Origin: a virus
IMG/VR virus record: IMGVR_UViG_3300008110_000635
Span: 1-29,970 of that record
Strand: one strand, 5' to 3'
DNA: 29,970 nt
Shown here: positions 16,943 to 25,661 of the stretch, piece by piece
Layout: each line of letters opens with the position of its first letter
Position numbering within the stretch: position 1 is the stretch's first letter
Made by a program: the position numbers and the translations under genes
The notes under the pieces: generated by a model
Told to the model about the DNA's origin: nothing
The model's database searches: none
Seen by the model: the letters and a program-made list of their open reading frames with translations, nothing else

Positions 16943-17304
16943 TGGGTTTGTTACAAAAACGAATTGCTGGTCCATCTGCCCTTACGACCACCACCACGAC
17001 TGTTTTGTACACTGTTCCACTTGGTGTCACAACAATTGTAAAGCAAATTATGCTGTGCAATATCACCGCTGGCGCGACAACAGTTACTCTTGCGTGCAAG
17101 CCAGCGGGCGTCTCGCAGACATCTGTTCATAACTTTGTCAACCAACTTTCACTGGCTGCTAACGAAACAGTTATGATTTCAACAAACTTGGTCTTGAATA
17201 ACAACGGTGGAACGGCAAACGCCTCAAACAGTGACCAGATTATTGGCAGCGCTGGTGCAAACACCAGCATTAACATAATCATCAACGGTATTGAGGAGTC
17301 GTAA
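16942..17304 (+). CDS. Small beta-sandwich virion protein, paralogue B
   Basis: A 120-residue protein starting at ATG 16942 with GGAGG 8 bases upstream. It reads ALTTTTTTVLYTVPLGVTTI, VKQIMLCNITAGATTVTLAC and LAANETVMISTNLVLNNNGG, and ends TSINIIINGIEES. It shares the TVLYTVP core and the closing strand with the product of 13421-13729, so the operon holds two diverged copies of this small protein, each placed right after a fibre gene. The stop overlaps the following ATG by one base. The role is probably as a fibre-associated capping or decoration protein; this is inference. Confidence 0.6.
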   Translation: MGLLQKRIAGPSALTTTTTTVLYTVPLGVTTIVKQIMLCNITAGATTVTLACKPAGVSQTSVHNFVNQLSLAANETVMISTNLVLNNNGGTANASNSDQIIGSAGANTSINIIINGIEES

Positions 17305-18038
17305 TGGCATCGTTTGTTCGGATGAACAGAACGAATGTCTCAACCGCCGAAGGCACTTCGTCACTCTCTGACATCTTTACCAAATCAGTTTCTCTCCTCA
17401 ATACTCCAGACCCTATTTATGGTTCTGGTATTGACGGAGATGTGATTATTTCCACCAATACATCTCTGTCGTCTGATATGCAGTATGCAAACCTAACCAT
17501 TAATAGCGGTATAGTTTTAAACCCAAATGGCTACAGGATTTTCGTAAGAGATACTTTGACTATGCACTCTGGCTCGCGCATTGGTTACACGGCTGGCTTT
17601 TCTACTGCTGGCTCAATAGCACAGGGCGGAGCAACCAACACAAGCGTCACCCATAGTCTCGGTGGAAACTCGGCTACGCAGACAGCCACTGCCCCTGCGG
17701 CGGTGCTGGGTGGTACGGCTTACTACTATTACGCGATGCAGGCAGTCAGGGGTTGGGCTGTTTCAGCATCATCAACAACTCCGACCTTTCTTCGTGGGGG
17801 AGCAGGCGGAACTGGTGGACCTGGCGGCGGCGTGGTCATCCTCGCCGCACGGTACATAGCAGCATCGGTGTCAACATCGTTTATCTCGGCAACCACATCA
17901 GGCACTAGCGCTGGGGGTGGCGGAGGTGTTGTTATCGTCATCTCGTCTGGGAATGTGATGCAACCTGGTATAACTATAGATGTAACAGGAGCATCTGGTG
18001 CGTCAAATGGCACCTCAATTTACCTACAGGTTGGATAA
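17304..18038 (+). CDS. Glycine-rich fibre/adhesin, paralogue A
   Basis: A 244-residue protein. Residues about 39-95 (YGSGIDGDVIISTNTSLSSD, YANLTINSGIVLNPNGYRIF, VRDTLTMHSGSRIG) align well with residues 26-80 of the next gene, so the two are tandem paralogues. The C-terminal half is glycine-rich: RGGAGGTGGPGGGVVILAAR at about residues 164-185 and SAGGGGGVVIVISSG near 208. Glycine-rich motifs packed into strands of this kind are found in the receptor-binding adhesin gp38 of T-even-like phages, but I see no direct homology. GAGGAG precedes the start. It is likely a distal fibre or receptor-contact protein; it lacks the collagen-like and His-rich parts of its neighbour. Confidence 0.6.
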   Translation: MASFVRMNRTNVSTAEGTSSLSDIFTKSVSLLNTPDPIYGSGIDGDVIISTNTSLSSDMQYANLTINSGIVLNPNGYRIFVRDTLTMHSGSRIGYTAGFSTAGSIAQGGATNTSVTHSLGGNSATQTATAPAAVLGGTAYYYYAMQAVRGWAVSASSTTPTFLRGGAGGTGGPGGGVVILAARYIAASVSTSFISATTSGTSAGGGGGVVIVISSGNVMQPGITIDVTGASGASNGTSIYLQVG

Positions 18039-18040
18039 AA

Positions 18041-19432
18041 ATGGTTATCAAAAAACTATCTGGATTGCTAAATCCGACAACCGATGCTTATCAGGCAAAA
18101 CTCAATAAACTCTTCGGCTCTGGTCAAGACGGAAGCATTGTCTACTCTTCTGGAGTCACCCATCTAACAAGAGATTTTTATTTTACGAACCTCACCGTAA
18201 ACTCTGGGGCGACTCTATTTACTAATGGTTTTAAGATATTTGTAAAAGAAACGCTGATAAATAACGGAACAATCGGAATGCCGATTGGAACATCGCAAAC
18301 AACATCCGTACTTGCTGGAACGGTGCTTACAAGAAATGATGGGAACATCTCTTATAACTCAGCCAACGCAATTGGCGGAGCAATCACTGTTTCGCAAATT
18401 ACTAACTTTGACGAACTTATTTCTGGTTCACGAACTGTTGGCGCACAATTAGAACGCATCTTTGCTGGTGCCGTAGGCGCTACTGGAGCGGCAGGAAATC
18501 CTGGCTCTGCTGGAACAGCGAACCCAGGTGGAGCGGACAGTGGTGGAGGCTCAACTGCTGGAAACCCTGGAACAGCAGGAACTGGTGGAACTGGTGGAAC
18601 TGGTGGTGCAGGTGGTCAGGGCGGTGGCATGGTCCTCATCTTGGCGAAAACTGTTACTGGTTCTGGAACATTTCTCTCAGAAGGAACCACTGGAGCCGCT
18701 GGAAACCCAGGTAATCCTGGAAACCCAGGCACTGCGGGAAATGCTGGAACCACATCTCCAGGAACCACCGTACCAGGAAACCCGTTTTCTCACGCGAACC
18801 CTCCAGTGCATCACGGAGTTCATAATCCAGGAAACCCGTTTTCTCATACCAATCCTCCAACAAGTGGTCACAACCCACCTGTCGCTGGTCATGCCGTAGT
18901 AGGAAACATCGCTGCTCCGTATCCATTCCACGCACCTGGAAACCCATTCCATTATGTTTCTGGACATAACGCTGCTGCTCATAACTCTGCTCACCACGCG
19001 CCTGCAAGAAATACAGCACCGAAACAGGCTGCTGCGCATGTGGCTGCGCACCATAGACCCTCAAATGCGAACCATGCTCAAGGGCATAATGCGGCAAGAG
19101 CGCAAATCGGGCATTACACGCACAATAGCCATTACCACATTACGCCAGTTCACCATATTGGAACGCCGTTTTCGCATGCCAACCCAGATACCACTGGAGT
19201 GAACCCTGCGCATCATGGTCATGCACAGGCGCCAGGAACTCCTACGACGGGAACAAACCCAACGACCCATAACGCAACATACCCTGGTGGTGCCGCTGGA
19301 ACTGGAAATCCAGGAACTGCTGGAAACCCAGGAGCGACTGGAGACACTGGTCAAGTTGGTGCGGTTGTTGTTTTGAGTCAGTCAATAACGGAATCAGCCA
19401 ATCCATCAACGCTGCTCAAGGACATCCACTAA
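18041..19432 (+). CDS. Collagen-like, histidine-rich fibre/adhesin, paralogue B
   Basis: A 463-residue protein. Residues 26-80 are paralogous to the previous gene. Three perfect Gly-X-Y runs follow: residues 143-160 (GAVGATGAAGNPGSAG), 219-236 (with three GNP triplets in a row) and 422-440 (GNPGTAGNPGATGDTGQVG). All seven GNP triplets have Pro in the Y position. The region between the second and third runs (residues 251-410) contains 29 His. It is built around a loose repeat G-N/T-P-F-S-H-x-N-P (residues 246, 264, 374; one variant at 300). Collagen-like shafts are known in phage fibres; His-rich tips can bind metal. It is followed 18 bases later by a prolyl-hydroxylase-like gene, which may modify it. 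Function is inferred. Confidence 0.65.
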   Translation: MVIKKLSGLLNPTTDAYQAKLNKLFGSGQDGSIVYSSGVTHLTRDFYFTNLTVNSGATLFTNGFKIFVKETLINNGTIGMPIGTSQTTSVLAGTVLTRNDGNISYNSANAIGGAITVSQITNFDELISGSRTVGAQLERIFAGAVGATGAAGNPGSAGTANPGGADSGGGSTAGNPGTAGTGGTGGTGGAGGQGGGMVLILAKTVTGSGTFLSEGTTGAAGNPGNPGNPGTAGNAGTTSPGTTVPGNPFSHANPPVHHGVHNPGNPFSHTNPPTSGHNPPVAGHAVVGNIAAPYPFHAPGNPFHYVSGHNAAAHNSAHHAPARNTAPKQAAAHVAAHHRPSNANHAQGHNAARAQIGHYTHNSHYHITPVHHIGTPFSHANPDTTGVNPAHHGHAQAPGTPTTGTNPTTHNATYPGGAAGTGNPGTAGNPGATGDTGQVGAVVVLSQSITESANPSTLLKDIH

Positions 19433-19438
19433 ATAATG

Positions 19439-19453
19439 TAGGATTTGCCCATG
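19439..19453 (+). promoter_or_regulatory. Translation leader TAGGATTTGCCCATG
   Basis: AGGA sits about 7 bases before ATG 19451, which decides this start over a TTG at 19445. The same 15 bases, with one change, precede the gene at 22374. See the separate finding. Confidence 0.45.
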
Positions 19454-20056
19454 GAACTAATCACGCATCAGCAATTTATTCTTGAGTATACAAAAGCCTT
19501 CAGAAGCCCAAACTTCATCTCAATGGTTGAAGAAGAATCGCGTCAGGACTGGGGTTATCTTCAATGGACAAAAGCATCTACGGGCGGGGATAAAGAGCGC
19601 GTCATTAGTGAGCATCGGTCAAACCTCAATATGAGTCTCAATCAATTGTTTGTTCCAATTGAAGAATGCCAAGTTGAAAGAATGAAACCATTAATTCAGG
19701 AAATGGCTTCAATCAATAAAAAATTAGAAGAATGCATTTGGCACTACAGAAATGCGTTTAATATTCATGTTTCACAAAACGAAGGCTATGGTCTTTTGAA
19801 ATATGGTCGTGGAGCGGAATATAAGGGCCATGTGGACCATCATGAAGATAATGGAAGAGTTTTTAGTATTGTTGCGTTTTTAAATGATGTTGAAGATGGC
19901 GGAGAGTTGGTTTTTCCTTTTCAGGAAGTTGAAATAAAGCCAAGGGCTGGAACCGTAGTAGCGTTCCCTTCAAATTTTCCTTTCTATCACTATGCAAAAC
20001 CAACAGGTGAAAACAGTGAAGAAATCAAATACTCAATGGTCACATGGTTTAAGTGA
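19451..20056 (+). CDS. 2OG-Fe(II) oxygenase, prolyl-4-hydroxylase-like (copy A)
   Basis: 201 residues from ATG 19451. The C-terminal double-stranded beta-helix is complete: Fe ligands H127 and D129 (YKGHVDHHEDN), a strand FSIVAFLNDVEDGGELVFPF, the turn PRAGTVVAFPS, the distal ligand H180 (YHYAKP) and K193 (IKYSMVTWF), the last matching the Lys that binds 2-oxoglutarate in prolyl 4-hydroxylases. Enzymes of this family hydroxylate proline or other residues using oxygen, 2OG and Fe(II), releasing succinate and CO2. The N-terminal 110 residues are helical and have no match I know. It follows the collagen-like fibre gene by 18 bases, so that protein is a candidate substrate. The stop overlaps the halogenase start (GTGA). 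Confidence 0.75.
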   Translation: MELITHQQFILEYTKAFRSPNFISMVEEESRQDWGYLQWTKASTGGDKERVISEHRSNLNMSLNQLFVPIEECQVERMKPLIQEMASINKKLEECIWHYRNAFNIHVSQNEGYGLLKYGRGAEYKGHVDHHEDNGRVFSIVAFLNDVEDGGELVFPFQEVEIKPRAGTVVAFPSNFPFYHYAKPTGENSEEIKYSMVTWFK

Positions 20057-21528
20057 ACATGAAAAAAATAGTAGTTTGCGGTTCTGGCACGGCAGGTCTA
20101 ATAACGGCAATTTATTTGAGGAATGTATTTCCTAAATTTGACATTGTTGTAGTTTCTTCTGAAAAAATAGGAATTATTGGTGTTGGCGAAGGCTCCACAG
20201 AGCATTGGCGTCAATTCTGCGAGCAATCGGGCATGAATAAGTTGGAGATGGTCAATAGGTGTGATGCAACACACAAGTACGGCATCTATTACGAAAACTG
20301 GACAAAGCATACGCCGCGCTACTTTCACAGCATTTCACTTGAGCCAATTGCAATAAATGGTTATTACGGGAACTACTCGTATGCACTTGAAAATTCAATG
20401 CTTTTAACAAATGTAACATCACACCACCTGCACGACAATATGGTGGTGGACGGGTCAATAGAGGAAATTCATAACCATACAAATCAGTTTCACTTTGACA
20501 CATTCAAACTCAATAACTACCTAACTGATATTGCGAGCAGTAGGGGAGTCATGTTTATTGAAGGGGAAATTCTGTCCGTATCGCAAAATACAGAAACTGG
20601 TTGGGTTGAATCAATAAATTTAAACGATAACCGAACAATCACTGACACGGATTTTATTGTTGATGCAACTGGTTTTTCTCGGGCAATTATGGGCAAAGTT
20701 CTTCCAGATGATGAATTTATTAGTTACAGGAAATATTTGCCATGCGATAGGTCTGCTGTTTTCCCAACACCACGCCAAGAAGACGGTCAAATTAGACCGT
20801 ACACAAGAGCAAGAGCAATGCCAAGTGGGTGGATGTTTGAAATACCAACACAGAGCCGCCGTGGAAATGGGTACATTTACTCTTCTGATTTCTGCTCAGA
20901 TGAACAAGCGGTTAAAGAAATAAAAGAAATTCATGGGGAAGATATTGAACCAAGAATAATTAAATGGAAATCTGGATATTACAAGACACAGGTATTTAAA
21001 AATGTTGCCTGCACTGGTCTGGCTTCTTCGTTTATTGAGCCACTTGAGGCAACATCAATATCAACATCAATCATTCAAGCGCGAATGATTTCTTCGCTCA
21101 TTCCAACTTTCAATCCTGACTCTGTGGCAATGGTAAAGCAGTATGACAAAAGATTCAAGGCTCTAATGGATAACGCTCTTTCAATGATTGCGTTGCATTA
21201 CATTTCAGATAGAACGGATTCGGAAATGTGGGCATCTCAGCAGTCTGCCGAAATACCCGAGCCATTAGCCGAGTTGCTTGAACTTTGGAAAGAACGAACA
21301 CCGCATCATTTTGATATTCCAAAATTTCATGAGGGTGGATACGAATTATTTTCTAGCGCACACTTCTGGCATGTCGCTCAAGGTCAGGGCGTGCTGAATA
21401 AGGAAGCGGCAACCGCAGAACTAAATGCATATTGCTCCAGAATAGAAATGCAAAAGTCCTTTTCCGACCTGGCAGCCAGTAGGATGACGGTAAAGGTGGT
21501 CCCACATGCGTCTATTTTCAAAAAATAA
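20053..21528 (+). CDS. Flavin-dependent tryptophan halogenase-like protein
   Basis: A 491-residue protein of the tryptophan halogenase family. Visible: FAD-binding GxGxxG (GSGTAG, residues 10-15); a second FAD-pocket stretch IGIIGVGEGST at 39-49; K75 in THKYGIYYENW, which aligns with the catalytic Lys of PrnA; the halogenase motif present as W-M-F-E-I-P (260-265), where the classic form is WxWxIP; DATGFSR at 204-210; and E332 within FIEPLEATS, the position of the catalytic Glu. Halogenases use FADH2, O2 and chloride or bromide to make HOX, which travels to the Lys. The substrate is unknown; phage copies are not proven to act on tryptophan. The start may be GTG 20053 (overlapping the previous stop) or ATG 20059. 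It overlaps the next gene by 23 bases. Confidence 0.8.
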   Translation: MNMKKIVVCGSGTAGLITAIYLRNVFPKFDIVVVSSEKIGIIGVGEGSTEHWRQFCEQSGMNKLEMVNRCDATHKYGIYYENWTKHTPRYFHSISLEPIAINGYYGNYSYALENSMLLTNVTSHHLHDNMVVDGSIEEIHNHTNQFHFDTFKLNNYLTDIASSRGVMFIEGEILSVSQNTETGWVESINLNDNRTITDTDFIVDATGFSRAIMGKVLPDDEFISYRKYLPCDRSAVFPTPRQEDGQIRPYTRARAMPSGWMFEIPTQSRRGNGYIYSSDFCSDEQAVKEIKEIHGEDIEPRIIKWKSGYYKTQVFKNVACTGLASSFIEPLEATSISTSIIQARMISSLIPTFNPDSVAMVKQYDKRFKALMDNALSMIALHYISDRTDSEMWASQQSAEIPEPLAELLELWKERTPHHFDIPKFHEGGYELFSSAHFWHVAQGQGVLNKEAATAELNAYCSRIEMQKSFSDLAASRMTVKVVPHASIFKK

Positions 21529-22354
21529 ACCGTCAGTATTTAAAGGTGACATCTACGAAGATGTTCCAGTTCCAAAAGACGGAGAACTACTAGCAATACC
21601 AATAGATAACCAAATGTGGCATCCAAGTATTGCTGTTTATCAAAATAATAGGAAAAGCCCAGACTGGTACAAGAATATTCTTTCTGGAGATTTCGGTCTG
21701 CGTGGGTGCTATGGGCTAGGCGACTACATGAGGATGGGTTACACAATTCCGTTATGGGCAAATCTGGAAGTGCGCCCACCGATATCAAAACTCAACCCCC
21801 AGTGGTCTGCTAGATACACCGCAGCAGACCAAAGTCTAGAAGTATTCAAAACAGCAAAACTTGAATTCTTGGACAAACATCATGTGTTTAAGCAATCTGT
21901 TGTTGAGGGGCAACAATTTGGTAATAGCCAAACTGGAGAATGTCCTATTCGTAATGTGAAAGGACTACCTGATAGCGATTACCTAAAGTTAACAAATCCG
22001 TGGTTGTTTAGAACCGCACCAGGCTGGTCTTGCCTTTTCATACAACCTCAATGGGAACCAAAGAACGAGTATGACATTCTTTGCGGAGTTGTCAACACCG
22101 ACATGTATCATCATTGTAATGTCGTTTTAAACATTAAGACAGCATCCGCTTTTACTGTTGAGGCTGGAACACCGCTTTTACATGTAATACCTTTTAAAAG
22201 GTCTCAAATAATAAAGAAATCGCAACTTATACGAGGCGACGAAAGCCTGCATCGGGTTCTTGACGGTCTTGGTTTTGGCATGGTATACAGAGATGAACAA
22301 TGGGCTGGAAAGTACAAAAAAGAACAGCACCGAATAGACAAGGAATTAGAGTAA
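21506..22354 (+). CDS. Uncharacterised protein of the oxygenase/halogenase cassette (DUF6065-like?)
   Basis: A 282-residue protein starting inside the end of the halogenase gene. I do not recognise it with confidence. It has an early Trp/Pro-rich part (MWHPSIAVYQNNRKSPDWYK, GLRGCYGLGDYMRMGYTIPL) and a later beta-rich part (WLFRTAPGWSCLFIQPQWEP, YDILCGVVNTDMYHHCNVVL), ending FTVEAGTPLLHVIPFKRSQ and a basic helical tail. The beta part has the rhythm of DUF6065-type proteins, which I recall as sometimes sitting near halogenases and oxygenases, but this rests on memory alone. No HxD iron motif is visible. Overlap with the halogenase suggests the two act together. Confidence 0.45.
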   Translation: MRLFSKNKPSVFKGDIYEDVPVPKDGELLAIPIDNQMWHPSIAVYQNNRKSPDWYKNILSGDFGLRGCYGLGDYMRMGYTIPLWANLEVRPPISKLNPQWSARYTAADQSLEVFKTAKLEFLDKHHVFKQSVVEGQQFGNSQTGECPIRNVKGLPDSDYLKLTNPWLFRTAPGWSCLFIQPQWEPKNEYDILCGVVNTDMYHHCNVVLNIKTASAFTVEAGTPLLHVIPFKRSQIIKKSQLIRGDESLHRVLDGLGFGMVYRDEQWAGKYKKEQHRIDKELE

Positions 22355-22361
22355 TTTGAGA

Positions 22362-22376
22362 TAGGATTTTCCCATG
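22362..22376 (+). promoter_or_regulatory. Translation leader TAGGATTTTCCCATG
   Basis: This site before ATG 22374 differs by one base from the leader of the gene at 19451. AGGA is the Shine-Dalgarno core. Confidence 0.45.
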
Positions 22377-22796
22377 CTTAGATACATCTACTGCCCAGAC
22401 GAATCATTTATGGATGAAGCGTCAAAAATGGCTTCAGAGTTTTCGTTGCCAATCATGGTTGGGTATGCCGAGGTTGCAAAAGATGCAGATTTTGATAGAA
22501 CCAAAGTTGGTTTCGTACTTATACCAGAGCAACCAGTAATGGTCATCCCTCAATCCCCAATCGCCTTGAATAAGTCCTTTATTGGTCACTATAAAAATGA
22601 CACTATTGATTCTTCAAAAATAGAATTATTTGTTTTACATAAAGAAAAAGAAACAAATGTTCAAACAAACATTCAAGACCCACGGTGTGTATTTTTTTCA
22701 ATACTTGCAAAGTCGGTTGGTGATTACATAATTTCCGTGCGAGTTGATGGTGTCCAGATTGAAACCCATGAATTCAGTGTTGAGGAAGAAAAATGA
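22374..22796 (+). CDS. Hypothetical protein in the oxygenase cassette
   Basis: A 140-residue protein without recognisable domain. It begins MLRYIYCPDESFMDEASKMA, has a hydrophobic strand pair VGFVLIPEQPVMVIPQSPIA, a Lys/Asp/Glu-rich middle and a closing strand region ILAKSVGDYIISVRVDGVQI. No signal peptide, membrane segment or metal motif. The stop overlaps the next start in an ATGA (22793), so it is translationally coupled to the P4H-like gene. It could be a partner or substrate-binding protein; this cannot be decided from the sequence. Confidence 0.5.
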   Translation: MLRYIYCPDESFMDEASKMASEFSLPIMVGYAEVAKDADFDRTKVGFVLIPEQPVMVIPQSPIALNKSFIGHYKNDTIDSSKIELFVLHKEKETNVQTNIQDPRCVFFSILAKSVGDYIISVRVDGVQIETHEFSVEEEK

Positions 22797-23512
22797 ACAA
22801 TATGCATGTTTTGAAATTTCCTGCTGGCAGAGAAGGGCACATTGCCGTTGCTGAATCAATGGTGAGCAGACAGTCCTGCCAGGAACTGGTTAGCGCATGC
22901 AAGCAGTCGTATGAACAACTATTTCATGTTGGTCCGACAATGGGCGGAGTCCAGAAGCACATAAAGAACACAATGGATTTTTCTTTTTCATACGACGAAC
23001 TGCACCCATTAAATCTTCCATCGCATAATACTTTTATGAAAATATCATACGAAGTTGATGCTGCTGTAAATACTGCGATTTCTTTATACCTAGAGGAATA
23101 CCCACATCTACGAGCAGCACCAAACCCGAGGCACACGGGTTTCAGGTTGCAAAAATATCTTAAGGGTGATGGCTTTTATAGAGTCCATATTGATGGCGAT
23201 GTTTGGACACAGGATTCGGAACGGGGACGAATCTTGGGAATGGTGATGTACTTGAATGACATTGAGATAGGCGGGGAAACAATGTTCCCTGACCAAAATG
23301 TTCGTGTCAAGGGTCGTGCTGGAGATATTGCAATATTCCCTGCAGCGTGGACGCACCCTCACGCTGGTTGTGTTCCAGTTTCCGATGATAAATGGATGAT
23401 TAGTACATTCATCATCTGTGATGTTCCAGACCTACATCGCCCATATGCATTGAATAACAAGATTCACGCACACACCGCAAGTTCAATGAAGCCAACAATT
23501 GTCGGAGAATAA
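22793..23512 (+). CDS. 2OG-Fe(II) oxygenase, prolyl-4-hydroxylase-like (copy B)
   Basis: A 239-residue protein with the most P4H-like core in the window. Fe ligands H132 and D134 (FYRVHIDGD), the strand ILGMVMYLNDIEIGGETMFP, the turn KGRAGDIAIFP, the distal ligand H190 in THPHAGCVPV and K200 (DDKWMISTFI) for 2-oxoglutarate. H-A-G-C-x-P-V followed by K-W is typical of collagen-type prolyl hydroxylases. The N-terminal 110 residues are helical. It is not a close copy of the gene at 19451: only the iron core is shared, so the two may have different substrates. It starts in an ATGA overlap with the preceding gene; an ATG at 22802 is possible. Confidence 0.8.
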   Translation: MNNMHVLKFPAGREGHIAVAESMVSRQSCQELVSACKQSYEQLFHVGPTMGGVQKHIKNTMDFSFSYDELHPLNLPSHNTFMKISYEVDAAVNTAISLYLEEYPHLRAAPNPRHTGFRLQKYLKGDGFYRVHIDGDVWTQDSERGRILGMVMYLNDIEIGGETMFPDQNVRVKGRAGDIAIFPAAWTHPHAGCVPVSDDKWMISTFIICDVPDLHRPYALNNKIHAHTASSMKPTIVGE

Positions 23513-23517
23513 AGAAT

Positions 23518-24153
23518 ATGCCGATTATTGTTGAAAATGTGTTTTCTGAACTGCAAATTTCTGAATTGAAGTCTTTGATAAATACATCGGGTTTTGTGGT
23601 TGATAGAAAACTCAATAGGTCTGTCTCTGGGATAATGGCTAAAAATGGATTACGAGAAGACAAAAGGTACAGACCACTTTCATCAGAAATGAATGCGCGG
23701 TTAAAGAGCATTTGCGATGAGCATCTTTCAACAACGGCGATACCAACATATTTTCTTGCGGCGAAATATTCCCCTATTTATGGCGGAACCCCTAATCTCC
23801 CTCCTCACCTTGACGACAACGCTTGTACATATACGATTGACTATCAATTGTCCTCAAGTGTTGATTGGGGAATCATGATTAACGGTGAAGAGTATGTACT
23901 CAAGGACAATTCGGCAGTTTTATATGATGGTGAAAATGAACTGCATTGGAGAGAAGATTTTTTAAGTAAGAATCCAATGGATTTTGTGCAGATGGTTTTT
24001 TTCCATTTTGCGGAACCAGAACACTGGTTCTTTAAAATTCCCCACATTACATCAACATCTTCTCCAGAAATACACGAAAGCCGTTTAACAAGAGAAGCAA
24101 AACTCTTAATCAAGTATGGAAAACAGGAAGGGTCAGAAAACAAATATGTTTAA
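23518..24153 (+). CDS. 2OG-Fe(II) oxygenase-type protein (copy C)
   Basis: A 211-residue protein. H97 and D99 (NLPPHLDDN) supply the first two Fe ligands; the DSBH strands read YTIDYQLSSSVDWGIMINGE and YVLKDNSAVLYDGENELHWR, where H143 would be the distal ligand, and FVQMVFFHFAEPEHWFF closes the fold. No clear Arg or Lys for 2-oxoglutarate can be fixed by eye. The 'PPHxDD...YTIDYQL...HWRED' layout is one I recall in proteins of marine phages and bacteria, usually named 2OG-Fe(II) oxygenase without known substrate. It starts 5 bases after the previous stop (GGAG upstream), and its end overlaps the next gene. Confidence 0.65.
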   Translation: MPIIVENVFSELQISELKSLINTSGFVVDRKLNRSVSGIMAKNGLREDKRYRPLSSEMNARLKSICDEHLSTTAIPTYFLAAKYSPIYGGTPNLPPHLDDNACTYTIDYQLSSSVDWGIMINGEEYVLKDNSAVLYDGENELHWREDFLSKNPMDFVQMVFFHFAEPEHWFFKIPHITSTSSPEIHESRLTREAKLLIKYGKQEGSENKYV

Positions 24154-24739
24154 AGGTGTAACCTACGCCCACCCAGTGACAATGGCTTACTATGTCACGC
24201 AAATGCCGTATCATCAAGACAATAAAAAGACAATTCTTGACATGATTGCGGATGTGCCTCGCGGTTCAAAAACCCATACATCCGAAGACGATGGTTACCA
24301 GCGAATAACTAAGTATGACTATCTTTTGGTTAACACCGAAGACAATCGCCCTTGGGTTGATTTTGTAAAGCCAAAAATAAACGATGTTCTGAAAAGCATG
24401 CCAAATGAGTTATTTTGGTCAAACCCAGTAATTCAAGCGTTATGGTTTCAGCAATACGAAGTTAACGACATGCACGACTGGCACCCACATGCTGGGTCTA
24501 ATTGGGCTGGAATTTACTACTTGGAGGCTCCAGAGAAACTACACATCACAGAATTTGTGGAACCATTTACCAATGGAATCAATTCTTTTTCTGCCCAAGA
24601 GGGAGACATCGTATTATTCCCAGCGCAAATTTTTCATAGGTCTGCGCCAAATGCAACAAGTTCTAGAAAAACGGTGATTGCTTTTAATTTTGACCTCATC
24701 AATGACGACATGCTCAAAATGAACGAGCAACAAAATTAA
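24146..24739 (+). CDS. 2OG-Fe(II) oxygenase, Oxy_5/TIGR02466-like (copy D)
   Basis: 197 residues from ATG 24146 (AGGAAGGG upstream; overlaps the previous gene by 8 bases). A start at 24116 in the same frame would overlap by 38 bases and has no ribosome site. The core reads MHDWHPHAGSNWAGIYYLEA, then EGDIVLFPAQIFHRSAPN and RKTVIAFNFDL. H164 is the distal Fe ligand and R174 the 2-oxoglutarate anchor. The first ligand motif is H113-P-H115, not the standard HxD; H-x-H occurs in this subfamily as far as I recall, but it should be checked. The gene ends one base before a convergent gene, with no room for a terminator. Confidence 0.65.
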   Translation: MFKGVTYAHPVTMAYYVTQMPYHQDNKKTILDMIADVPRGSKTHTSEDDGYQRITKYDYLLVNTEDNRPWVDFVKPKINDVLKSMPNELFWSNPVIQALWFQQYEVNDMHDWHPHAGSNWAGIYYLEAPEKLHITEFVEPFTNGINSFSAQEGDIVLFPAQIFHRSAPNATSSRKTVIAFNFDLINDDMLKMNEQQN

Positions 24740-24740
24740 A

Positions 24741-25175
24741 CTAAATAGACATTGAAATGCCAGCCCTTGGGGTTAGTGCTGTTGAACGGTGTCCTATTCC
24801 AGTTCTAATAAAAACCAAATCACCAGGTTCAAGTTCCCATGTTGGGCCACAATCAATTTCCCACCTACTTTTTCCTTGAACTTGCCAATAAAATACATCA
24901 ACATGGTCGTGATGCATTCCGAATCCGCTTGCATCGGTTGCAACATTGATGTATAAATGTGCCGCAATTAGGCTCAGTCGTTCTAAAACTGGTTTTACTT
25001 TTTCAATCCTGTAGGCATCAAGTGATGCAAAAAATCCAAGCGGGAAATGAGTGAGTGGCATTTTATTCTCAACTGACCAATTGAGGTTTTCTAGTATTTC
25101 AGACCACGAAGGAACATCAGTCTCAAAGCCTTTTTTAATCCAGTAATTCTCTGTGTCTTCATTTTCCAAAAACAT
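24741..25175 (-). CDS. JmjC/cupin-type Fe(II) oxygenase-like protein (E)
   Basis: A 144-residue protein with a small cupin/JmjC-type barrel. H88 and D90 lie in GMHHDHVDVFYWQVQGKSRW, which follows the pattern of NO66/Mina53-type ribosomal oxygenases (H-x-D-x-x-x-V-F-x-x-Q-x-x-G-x-x-x-W). H129 in RTGIGHRS supplies the distal ligand after ELEPGDLVFI. The family hydroxylates protein residues, mostly His, Asn or Arg, using 2-oxoglutarate. At 144 residues it is a minimal version, lacking the C-terminal dimer and winged-helix domains of NO66. It is convergent with copy D and forms a two-gene operon with the YkgJ-type gene upstream (3-base spacing). Confidence 0.6.
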   Translation of the reverse strand: MFLENEDTENYWIKKGFETDVPSWSEILENLNWSVENKMPLTHFPLGFFASLDAYRIEKVKPVLERLSLIAAHLYINVATDASGFGMHHDHVDVFYWQVQGKSRWEIDCGPTWELEPGDLVFIRTGIGHRSTALTPRAGISMSI

Positions 25176-25178
25176 TAT

Positions 25179-25661
25179 CTACCGATTTCCACCTTCTGCA
25201 TAATAAGCCTTTAAAAACTCATCAGAACCAATTGCGCTAACCCCACCATCATATGACCAAGTAAAATTAAACTTGTTCAATGACATGTATGATACGGCCC
25301 ATGACAGTGTTGCTGTTTCTAAAACTCCGCCTGCTTCTATTAGAGAAAAATATTGATGCTCTCCGATACTGTAGTTAACGAATATTGCATTAACTAGATT
25401 CGGTTTTACCCATTCTGGAAAGTTTGGGTCGGCAAGCCATTGGCACCTGAATGATTTACATGGATGCTCTGGCCTGTCTTCATAAATAGAGCATCCAGAA
25501 TCCATGTCTACAAAATGACACGGTTTTCCTGGGAACATTGGAATCCCATGAACCTCTCCGCTCAGATAGCCGTCACAACACTTTGTGCAGGTTCCGCAAC
25601 TACGCTCCCTGATTCTCAACTGGACACTAGTTTCTTGCTTCACTCCGTAAATCCTACACAT
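25179..25661 (-). CDS. YkgJ-type cysteine-cluster protein
   Basis: A 160-residue protein with the YkgJ/FliB-like zinc- or iron-cluster motif: C22-x2-C25-x2-C28-C29 (SCGTCTKCCDG), then C48 (GKPCHF), C57 (GCSIYEDRPEHPC), C68 and C73 (KSFRCQW). Members are predicted to bind an Fe-S or Zn cluster; some are linked to protein methylation or oxidation, but most are uncharacterised. The second half (NAIFVNYSIGEHQYFSLIEA) is unassigned. It is the first gene of a minus-strand pair with the JmjC-like gene, so the two probably work together, possibly in iron supply or as a maturation factor. The ATG lacks a clear Shine-Dalgarno; the divergent gene begins close by. Confidence 0.65.
   Translation of the reverse strand: MCRIYGVKQETSVQLRIRERSCGTCTKCCDGYLSGEVHGIPMFPGKPCHFVDMDSGCSIYEDRPEHPCKSFRCQWLADPNFPEWVKPNLVNAIFVNYSIGEHQYFSLIEAGGVLETATLSWAVSYMSLNKFNFTWSYDGGVSAIGSDEFLKAYYAEGGNR

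Follow-up and report, generated by a model that had tools for sequence, protein, structure and literature searches.

A phage fibre with a long low-complexity insert, and the linked cassette of an oxygenase, a halogenase and a DUF6065 protein that probably tailors its tip

The window, by which we mean the whole 29,970-nucleotide stretch of water-borne phage DNA that was analysed, carries two adjoining fibre genes followed by a run of enzyme genes. The features are as follows.

17304-18038, + strand: companion fibre protein, 244 aa, without insert; fibre-type N-terminal beta-strand domain (profile match)
18041-19432, + strand: adhesin-like fibre, 463 aa; beta-strand N-terminal domain, Gly-rich tracts and long low-complexity insert
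18467-18520, + strand: first Gly-X-Y run, residues 143-160; high pLDDT
18560-18631, + strand: Gly-X-Y/poly-Gly run, residues 174-197; Gly at every third position, partly poly-Gly
18683-18754, + strand: Gly-X-Y run with GNPGNPGNP, residues 215-238
18776-19285, + strand: His/Asn/Pro-rich insert of 170 residues, approximately residues 246-415; predicted to be disordered
19304-19366, + strand: Gly-X-Y run, residues 422-442
19451-20056, + strand: oxygenase 1, PF13640 (prolyl-4-hydroxylase-like), E = 6.5e-15; H127/D129/H180 and K193
20053-21528, + strand: flavin-dependent halogenase, PF04820 (Trp_halogenase), E = 4.8e-95; GSGTAG, K75, WMFEIP and E329
21506-22354, + strand: DUF6065-family protein; dUTPase-like beta-clip fold suggested
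22374-22796, + strand: small cassette protein, 140 aa; often directly 3' of the fibre in other loci
22793-23512, + strand: oxygenase 2, PF13640 (family match); found in only part of the loci
23518-24153, + strand: 211-aa protein, phrog_2954; weak relative also in Tyr-type and Phe-type cassettes
24116-24739, + strand: 2OG-FeII_Oxy_5 (PF13759) oxygenase (family match)
24741-25175, - strand: JmjC_2 (PF08007) protein (family match), convergent

The layout given in the original prediction was confirmed for the oxygenases. The ATG of oxygenase 1 at 19451 follows the fibre stop codon after a gap of 18 bases, the ligands H127/D129/H180 are complete and accompanied by K193, and a second PF13640 gene begins at 22793. 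The three Gly-X-Y runs described for the fibre are likewise present, but a fourth, at residues 174-197, had been overlooked. The prediction also made no mention of the His/Asn/Pro-rich insert, the halogenase, DUF6065, the PF13759 oxygenase or the JmjC_2 protein.

An AlphaFold model of the fibre as a monomer, based on a 19-sequence alignment, gave block pLDDT values of mostly 78-96 for the Gly-rich tracts and the strand domain, and mostly below 50 for the insert. The Gly tracts were assigned neither helix nor strand by DSSP, at high pLDDT. This model is better accounted for by a Gly-rich scaffold carrying a disordered tip than by a triple helix, although a monomer leaves room for trimers. S16/T2-type gp38 adhesins with a polyglycine-II sandwich (PDB 6F45, PMC6851490) are similar in having a beta-strand domain, Gly-rich tracts and variable host-contact loops, whereas the window fibre has one very long low-complexity insert in place of short loops and found no match in a PDB fold search. 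The matches of the fibre in a viral structure library had low TM-scores and were for the most part collagen-like or uncharacterised proteins, and tblastn among isolate phages returned no relatives of the fibre. Since psbA (PF00124) had no match in 12 larger contigs, the phages are not clearly cyanophages.

The nearest solved relatives of oxygenase 1 are prolyl 4-hydroxylases (BaP4H, E = 1.2e-9; Cr-P4H, E = 0.006), matched over the core region only. It has in common with the enzymes of B. anthracis (3ITQ/5HV0), Chlamydomonas and PBCV-1 the PF13640-type double-stranded beta-helix with HxD..H and Lys, and differs from them in its linkage to a halogenase/DUF6065 cassette. Among 78 halogenase-linked oxygenase homologues, HxD..H is intact in every one and K193 is kept in 75, with R in the other 3. 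The halogenase has the GxGxxG motif, the catalytic Lys and the WxWxIP motif, the last as the variant WMFEIP, and VirX1 is among its PDB relatives. Of 79 inserts, 31 have no Trp, and the entire window fibre has none either, which rules out fibre Trp as the halogenase target in the window.

The best Foldseek match of the DUF6065 model (E = 7.5e-4, TMq 0.28) is a weak resemblance to a dUTPase-like beta-clip, and 4 of 12 DUF6065 members had a Pfam dUTPase match. In haloviruses, genes for thymidylate synthase and DNA polymerase are found close to DUF6065 relatives; in the haloarchaeal tailed viruses HSTV-2 (L269, 6941-7810) and HCTV-6 (L270, 6947-7810), the DUF6065-like gene adjoins thymidylate synthase and is a few genes away from adhesin/tail-fibre genes. 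No family match was found for the small cassette protein. Many His-type loci have an additional gene of 230-360 aa between oxygenase and halogenase (L028:10954-11673, L038:10634-11680), for which no Pfam family was found in the two tested. At 25179-25661 of the window (- strand), a conserved Cys-rich protein with no Pfam match, whose relatives have the sequence SCGTCTKCCEGYL, occurs near the cassette in several related loci.

The cassette of small protein, oxygenase, VirX1-type flavin halogenase and DUF6065 protein is conserved beside this fibre family. Most often, the fibre gene is followed by the small protein, then the oxygenase, the halogenase and DUF6065, and the companion fibre precedes the insert-bearing one at nearly every locus. 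Linkage was counted in scans initiated from the fibre N-terminal domain and in pooled sets that were partly found via the enzymes, and a His insert was called at a cut-off of 3%. In the pooled scans, a halogenase lay within 6 kb of 70/70 dereplicated fibres with His-rich inserts and an oxygenase within 6 kb of 66/70, while all five insert-less fibres lacked both. In the dereplicated fibre-initiated set, halogenase and oxygenase were both present within 6.5 kb of 39/39 insert fibres and of 0/6 insert-less fibres. The fibre-oxygenase pair thus co-occurs across related genomes, as the original prediction required, although not as a system of two genes: the oxygenase is one part of a cassette that includes the halogenase. 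A scan aimed at divergent homologues yielded 32 insert-less fibres after dereplication, and no cassette gene accompanied any of them, where a contig fragment without the cassette does not equal absence of the cassette. Reverse scans from the halogenase and from DUF6065 led to the same fibre family. Of 57 well-flanked halogenase clusters, 54 had an insert fibre and DUF6065, and 51 had these together with an oxygenase; the remainder comprised two that lack the oxygenase only, three without a fibre, and L046, in which the His insert falls just below the cut-off.

The linkage is kept after rearrangement, with the cassette found upstream of the fibre (L042, L251), inverted (L189) or reordered (L243). 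One fibre (L051, contig G012) is flanked by two oxygenase-halogenase-DUF6065 sets. Two loci were reassessed. L061, one of the six insert-less loci in the fibre-initiated count, had been read as having lost both insert and cassette independently; it was set aside because its contig starts ~540 bases before the fibre, with the edge on the side where its relative L042 has the cassette. L331 had seemed an insert-less fibre with an oxygenase, but a halogenase lies on the same contig and the fibre is truncated within a His-rich insert.

The second enzyme of the cassette changes with the composition of the insert. In a sister clade of fibres, the inserts are of a Tyr type, made up of PGNNYSY, GYSY and NPTNYG repeats. 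Oxygenase(s) and DUF6065 are retained beside each of its 17 dereplicated members, none of which has a halogenase; the position of the halogenase is taken in all 17 by an FkbM-type methyltransferase (of four tested, two scored above the PF05050 cut-off). Within the Tyr/Asn repeats of these inserts (L319, L333, L350, L352, L357-L397) are conserved HTHYHWH and YHYHYAHSH segments, the alternating His of which is reminiscent of metal-binding HxH sites. A Phe-rich fibre with FFQPGNPFSF repeats (L353) is accompanied by two oxygenases, DUF6065 and a GlcNAc-transferase-family gene (PF11397, E = 9.4e-11). This swap of enzymes indicates that oxygenase and DUF6065 go with low-complexity inserts in general and the halogenase with His. 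Tyr is therefore unlikely as a general halogenase target, because Tyr-rich inserts occur without the halogenase. The GlcNAc-transferase that acts on Skp1 belongs to PF11397. The L353 cassette alone, in combining a P4H-type enzyme with a PF11397 GlcNAc-transferase, resembles the Skp1 prolyl hydroxylation/GlcNAc pathway (PMC3515798); it differs in sitting in a phage fibre neighbourhood and in its activity being predicted, and the PF11397 gene had no sequence match to solved structures.

On the fibre tree, five parsimony changes of insert type were counted among 168 sequences. With the insert types close to monophyletic, the counts draw on a small number of independent events, and the Fisher p-values come out too strong. 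Such a distribution would also suit a His-rich insert that serves as a metal-binding tip, with the enzymes linked to it through inherited hitch-hiking and without functional relation. His makes up 18.7% of the inserts against 0.6% elsewhere, and HxH is found in 75/79 inserts; the tip of T4 gp37 has HxH iron sites. Hitch-hiking, however, sits poorly with a cassette that stays near the fibre even when moved or inverted and is absent beside insert-less homologues, and a metal-binding tip leaves the enzyme swap of the Tyr-type loci unexplained. We consider this explanation improbable.

Proline placement bears on the suggestion that the oxygenase acts on collagen-like triplets. GNP occurs ten times in the window fibre and is followed by Gly in seven cases; the earlier statement that these seven have Pro in the Y position is correct, but it is true by definition and so uninformative. 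Counted over all 29 Gly-X-Y triplets, the fibre has 0 X-position and 7 Y-position Pro, more than expected by chance. Cassette-linked fibres as a whole show an X-Pro:Y-Pro ratio of 25:237, against 1509:78 in other collagen-like ORFs of related contigs. Phage collagen normally leans the other way, and published phage and viral collagens likewise favour Pro in X and show no Y-Pro preference (PMC3368898). Along with the P4H relatives of the oxygenase, the Y-Pro lean of the cassette-linked fibres is what would be expected of a collagen prolyl 4-hydroxylase that hydroxylates Y-position Pro and stabilises a triple helix. Yet insert-less homologues lean towards Y as well (5:1, small n), and across the pooled loci Y-position Pro in Gly-X-Y did not predict the presence of the oxygenase (OR 0.97, p = 1), with 15 oxygenase-bearing fibres having none at all. 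Tyr-type fibres are nearly devoid of Gly-X-Y (35 triplets in 18 fibres) and still keep the oxygenase. The runs of the window fibre span only 6-8 triplets each, with none of the long tracts or X-position Pro of phage collagens, and the Gly tracts are modelled confidently in a single chain, with the insert disordered. Judged by co-occurrence only, Y-position Pro of Gly-X-Y does not behave as the oxygenase substrate. Collagen stabilisation was rejected as the main function on the basis of the Y-Pro/oxygenase comparison and the Tyr-type fibres, and a collagen hydroxylase of this kind is, in our estimate, very unlikely. What stands of the proposal that the phage hydroxylates its own fibre is the broader part, that the phage modifies the fibre, which is the best reading of the co-occurrence, the P4H relatives and the unusual Y-Pro bias.

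A different proline context marks the cassette-linked fibres. The window fibre contains 20 Asn-Pro among its 37 Pro, whereas 20,000 composition shuffles averaged 3.3 and never exceeded 11. Asn-Pro is enriched 2.9-fold in His-type inserts, 2.9-fold in the remainder of those fibres and 2.5-fold in Tyr-type fibres, compared with 0.73-fold in insert-less homologues, 1.25-fold in the companion fibre and 0.77-fold in other Gly-rich ORFs. The dipeptide is common to the His-, Tyr- and Phe-type inserts and to the GNP triplets. Its enrichment may be due only to turn-making.

The closest characterised locus is that of VirX1 (PF04820, PDB 6QGM). The halogenase ORF of cyanophage Syn10 (L107:10514-12106) has 531 codons (530 aa and a stop) and fits VirX1, given as 531 residues in the passages of a review that deal with it (PMC8407142), in source and size; the VirX1 structure is, by construction, the top PDB match of a profile that includes the Syn10 protein. 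Upstream of the Syn10 halogenase lie genes for Gly-rich fibre-tip proteins that contain His; downstream come a DUF6065 homologue (E = 3.5e-16) and genes of the 2OG-FeII_Oxy_5, JmjC_2 and DUF6445 families. This neighbourhood parallels the window in its halogenase family, the adjoining DUF6065 homologue, the 2OG/JmjC_2 oxygenases and the upstream Gly-rich tips. It is unlike the window in that the Syn10 fibre tip belongs to the Gly_rich_2 family and has no NP-rich insert of the window type, and the two halogenases are distant, at 22% identity in the alignment. P-TIM40 resembles Syn10 in its fibre tips, halogenases and DUF6065.

Halogenases are found away from such fibres in the isolate phages P-SSM2, S-PM2, HTVC008M, S-H38 and Syn1, and therefore the fibre link is not universal and the enzyme family has other roles. 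They lend some weight to the idea that the cassette acts elsewhere, on the host surface, a small molecule or 2OG/halogen metabolism, and that the fibre is a co-selected neighbour which, for example, recognises the product. Cyanophage 2OG oxygenases have been tied to 2OG levels or DNA repair (PMC3037559), and VirX1 is described, in the part of the review that concerns it, as accepting many free aromatic substrates (PMC8407142). Against this, the residue type of the insert covaries with the enzyme type, the linkage survives rearrangements, and the Asn-Pro enrichment is confined to cassette-linked fibres. We regard action elsewhere as unlikely, though less so than either a collagen hydroxylase or hitch-hiking.

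We propose, as the probable reading, that 18041-24739 forms a module for tailoring the fibre tip, in which the oxygenase is the core and the second enzyme can be exchanged. That the enzymes act on the fibre is suggested by the linkage, the intact catalytic residues, the covariation of insert and enzyme, and the Asn-Pro enrichment. The fibre would be a Gly-rich adhesin whose long disordered insert touches the host. Late in infection, the co-encoded enzymes would modify side chains of the insert. The PF13640 oxygenase, forming a constant core with DUF6065, would carry out hydroxylation, with the Pro or the Asn of Asn-Pro as its most likely target, and the swappable second enzyme would add a group according to insert type: the halogenase for His-rich, the FkbM methyltransferase for Tyr-rich and the GlcNAc-transferase-family enzyme for Phe-rich tips. 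The residue assigned to each enzyme is the least certain element of this scheme. More tentatively, phages may diversify their receptor-binding tips by means of an exchangeable, residue-matched enzyme cassette around a hydroxylase core, and the adhesin, probably through its His, could be the native substrate of VirX1-like halogenases; we consider this possible but somewhat doubtful.

Virus-encoded modification of the virion exists elsewhere, as Mimivirus L230 is a collagen hydroxylase/glycosyltransferase. L230 is comparable in that a virus encodes the modification of its own fibres, here predicted; it differs in its enzymes and residues and in having no halogenase or methyltransferase swap. No report of hydroxylated phage tail fibres was found in the literature searched. 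The review passages on VirX1 give no native substrate (PMC8407142). By another account, what the many 2OG oxygenases of cyanophages do has not been the subject of specific study (PMC9602691). As both enzyme types are tightly linked to one fibre segment, that segment offers a concrete, testable substrate. If the tailoring hypothesis is correct, the fibre gene alone does not specify the whole host-binding surface in some phages, which bears on host-range prediction and on the heterologous expression of such fibres. It would also be a novel route by which viruses construct the parts that bind the host, and would point to a role for viral halogenases.

PF13640 genes can be numerous on a single phage contig, with twelve matches on G014 (L037) and nine on G001 (L042). 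In Synechococcus phage S-SCSM2R (L109), several 2OG oxygenases share a stretch of ~8 kb with a run of glycosyltransferases and a radical SAM maturase-like gene.
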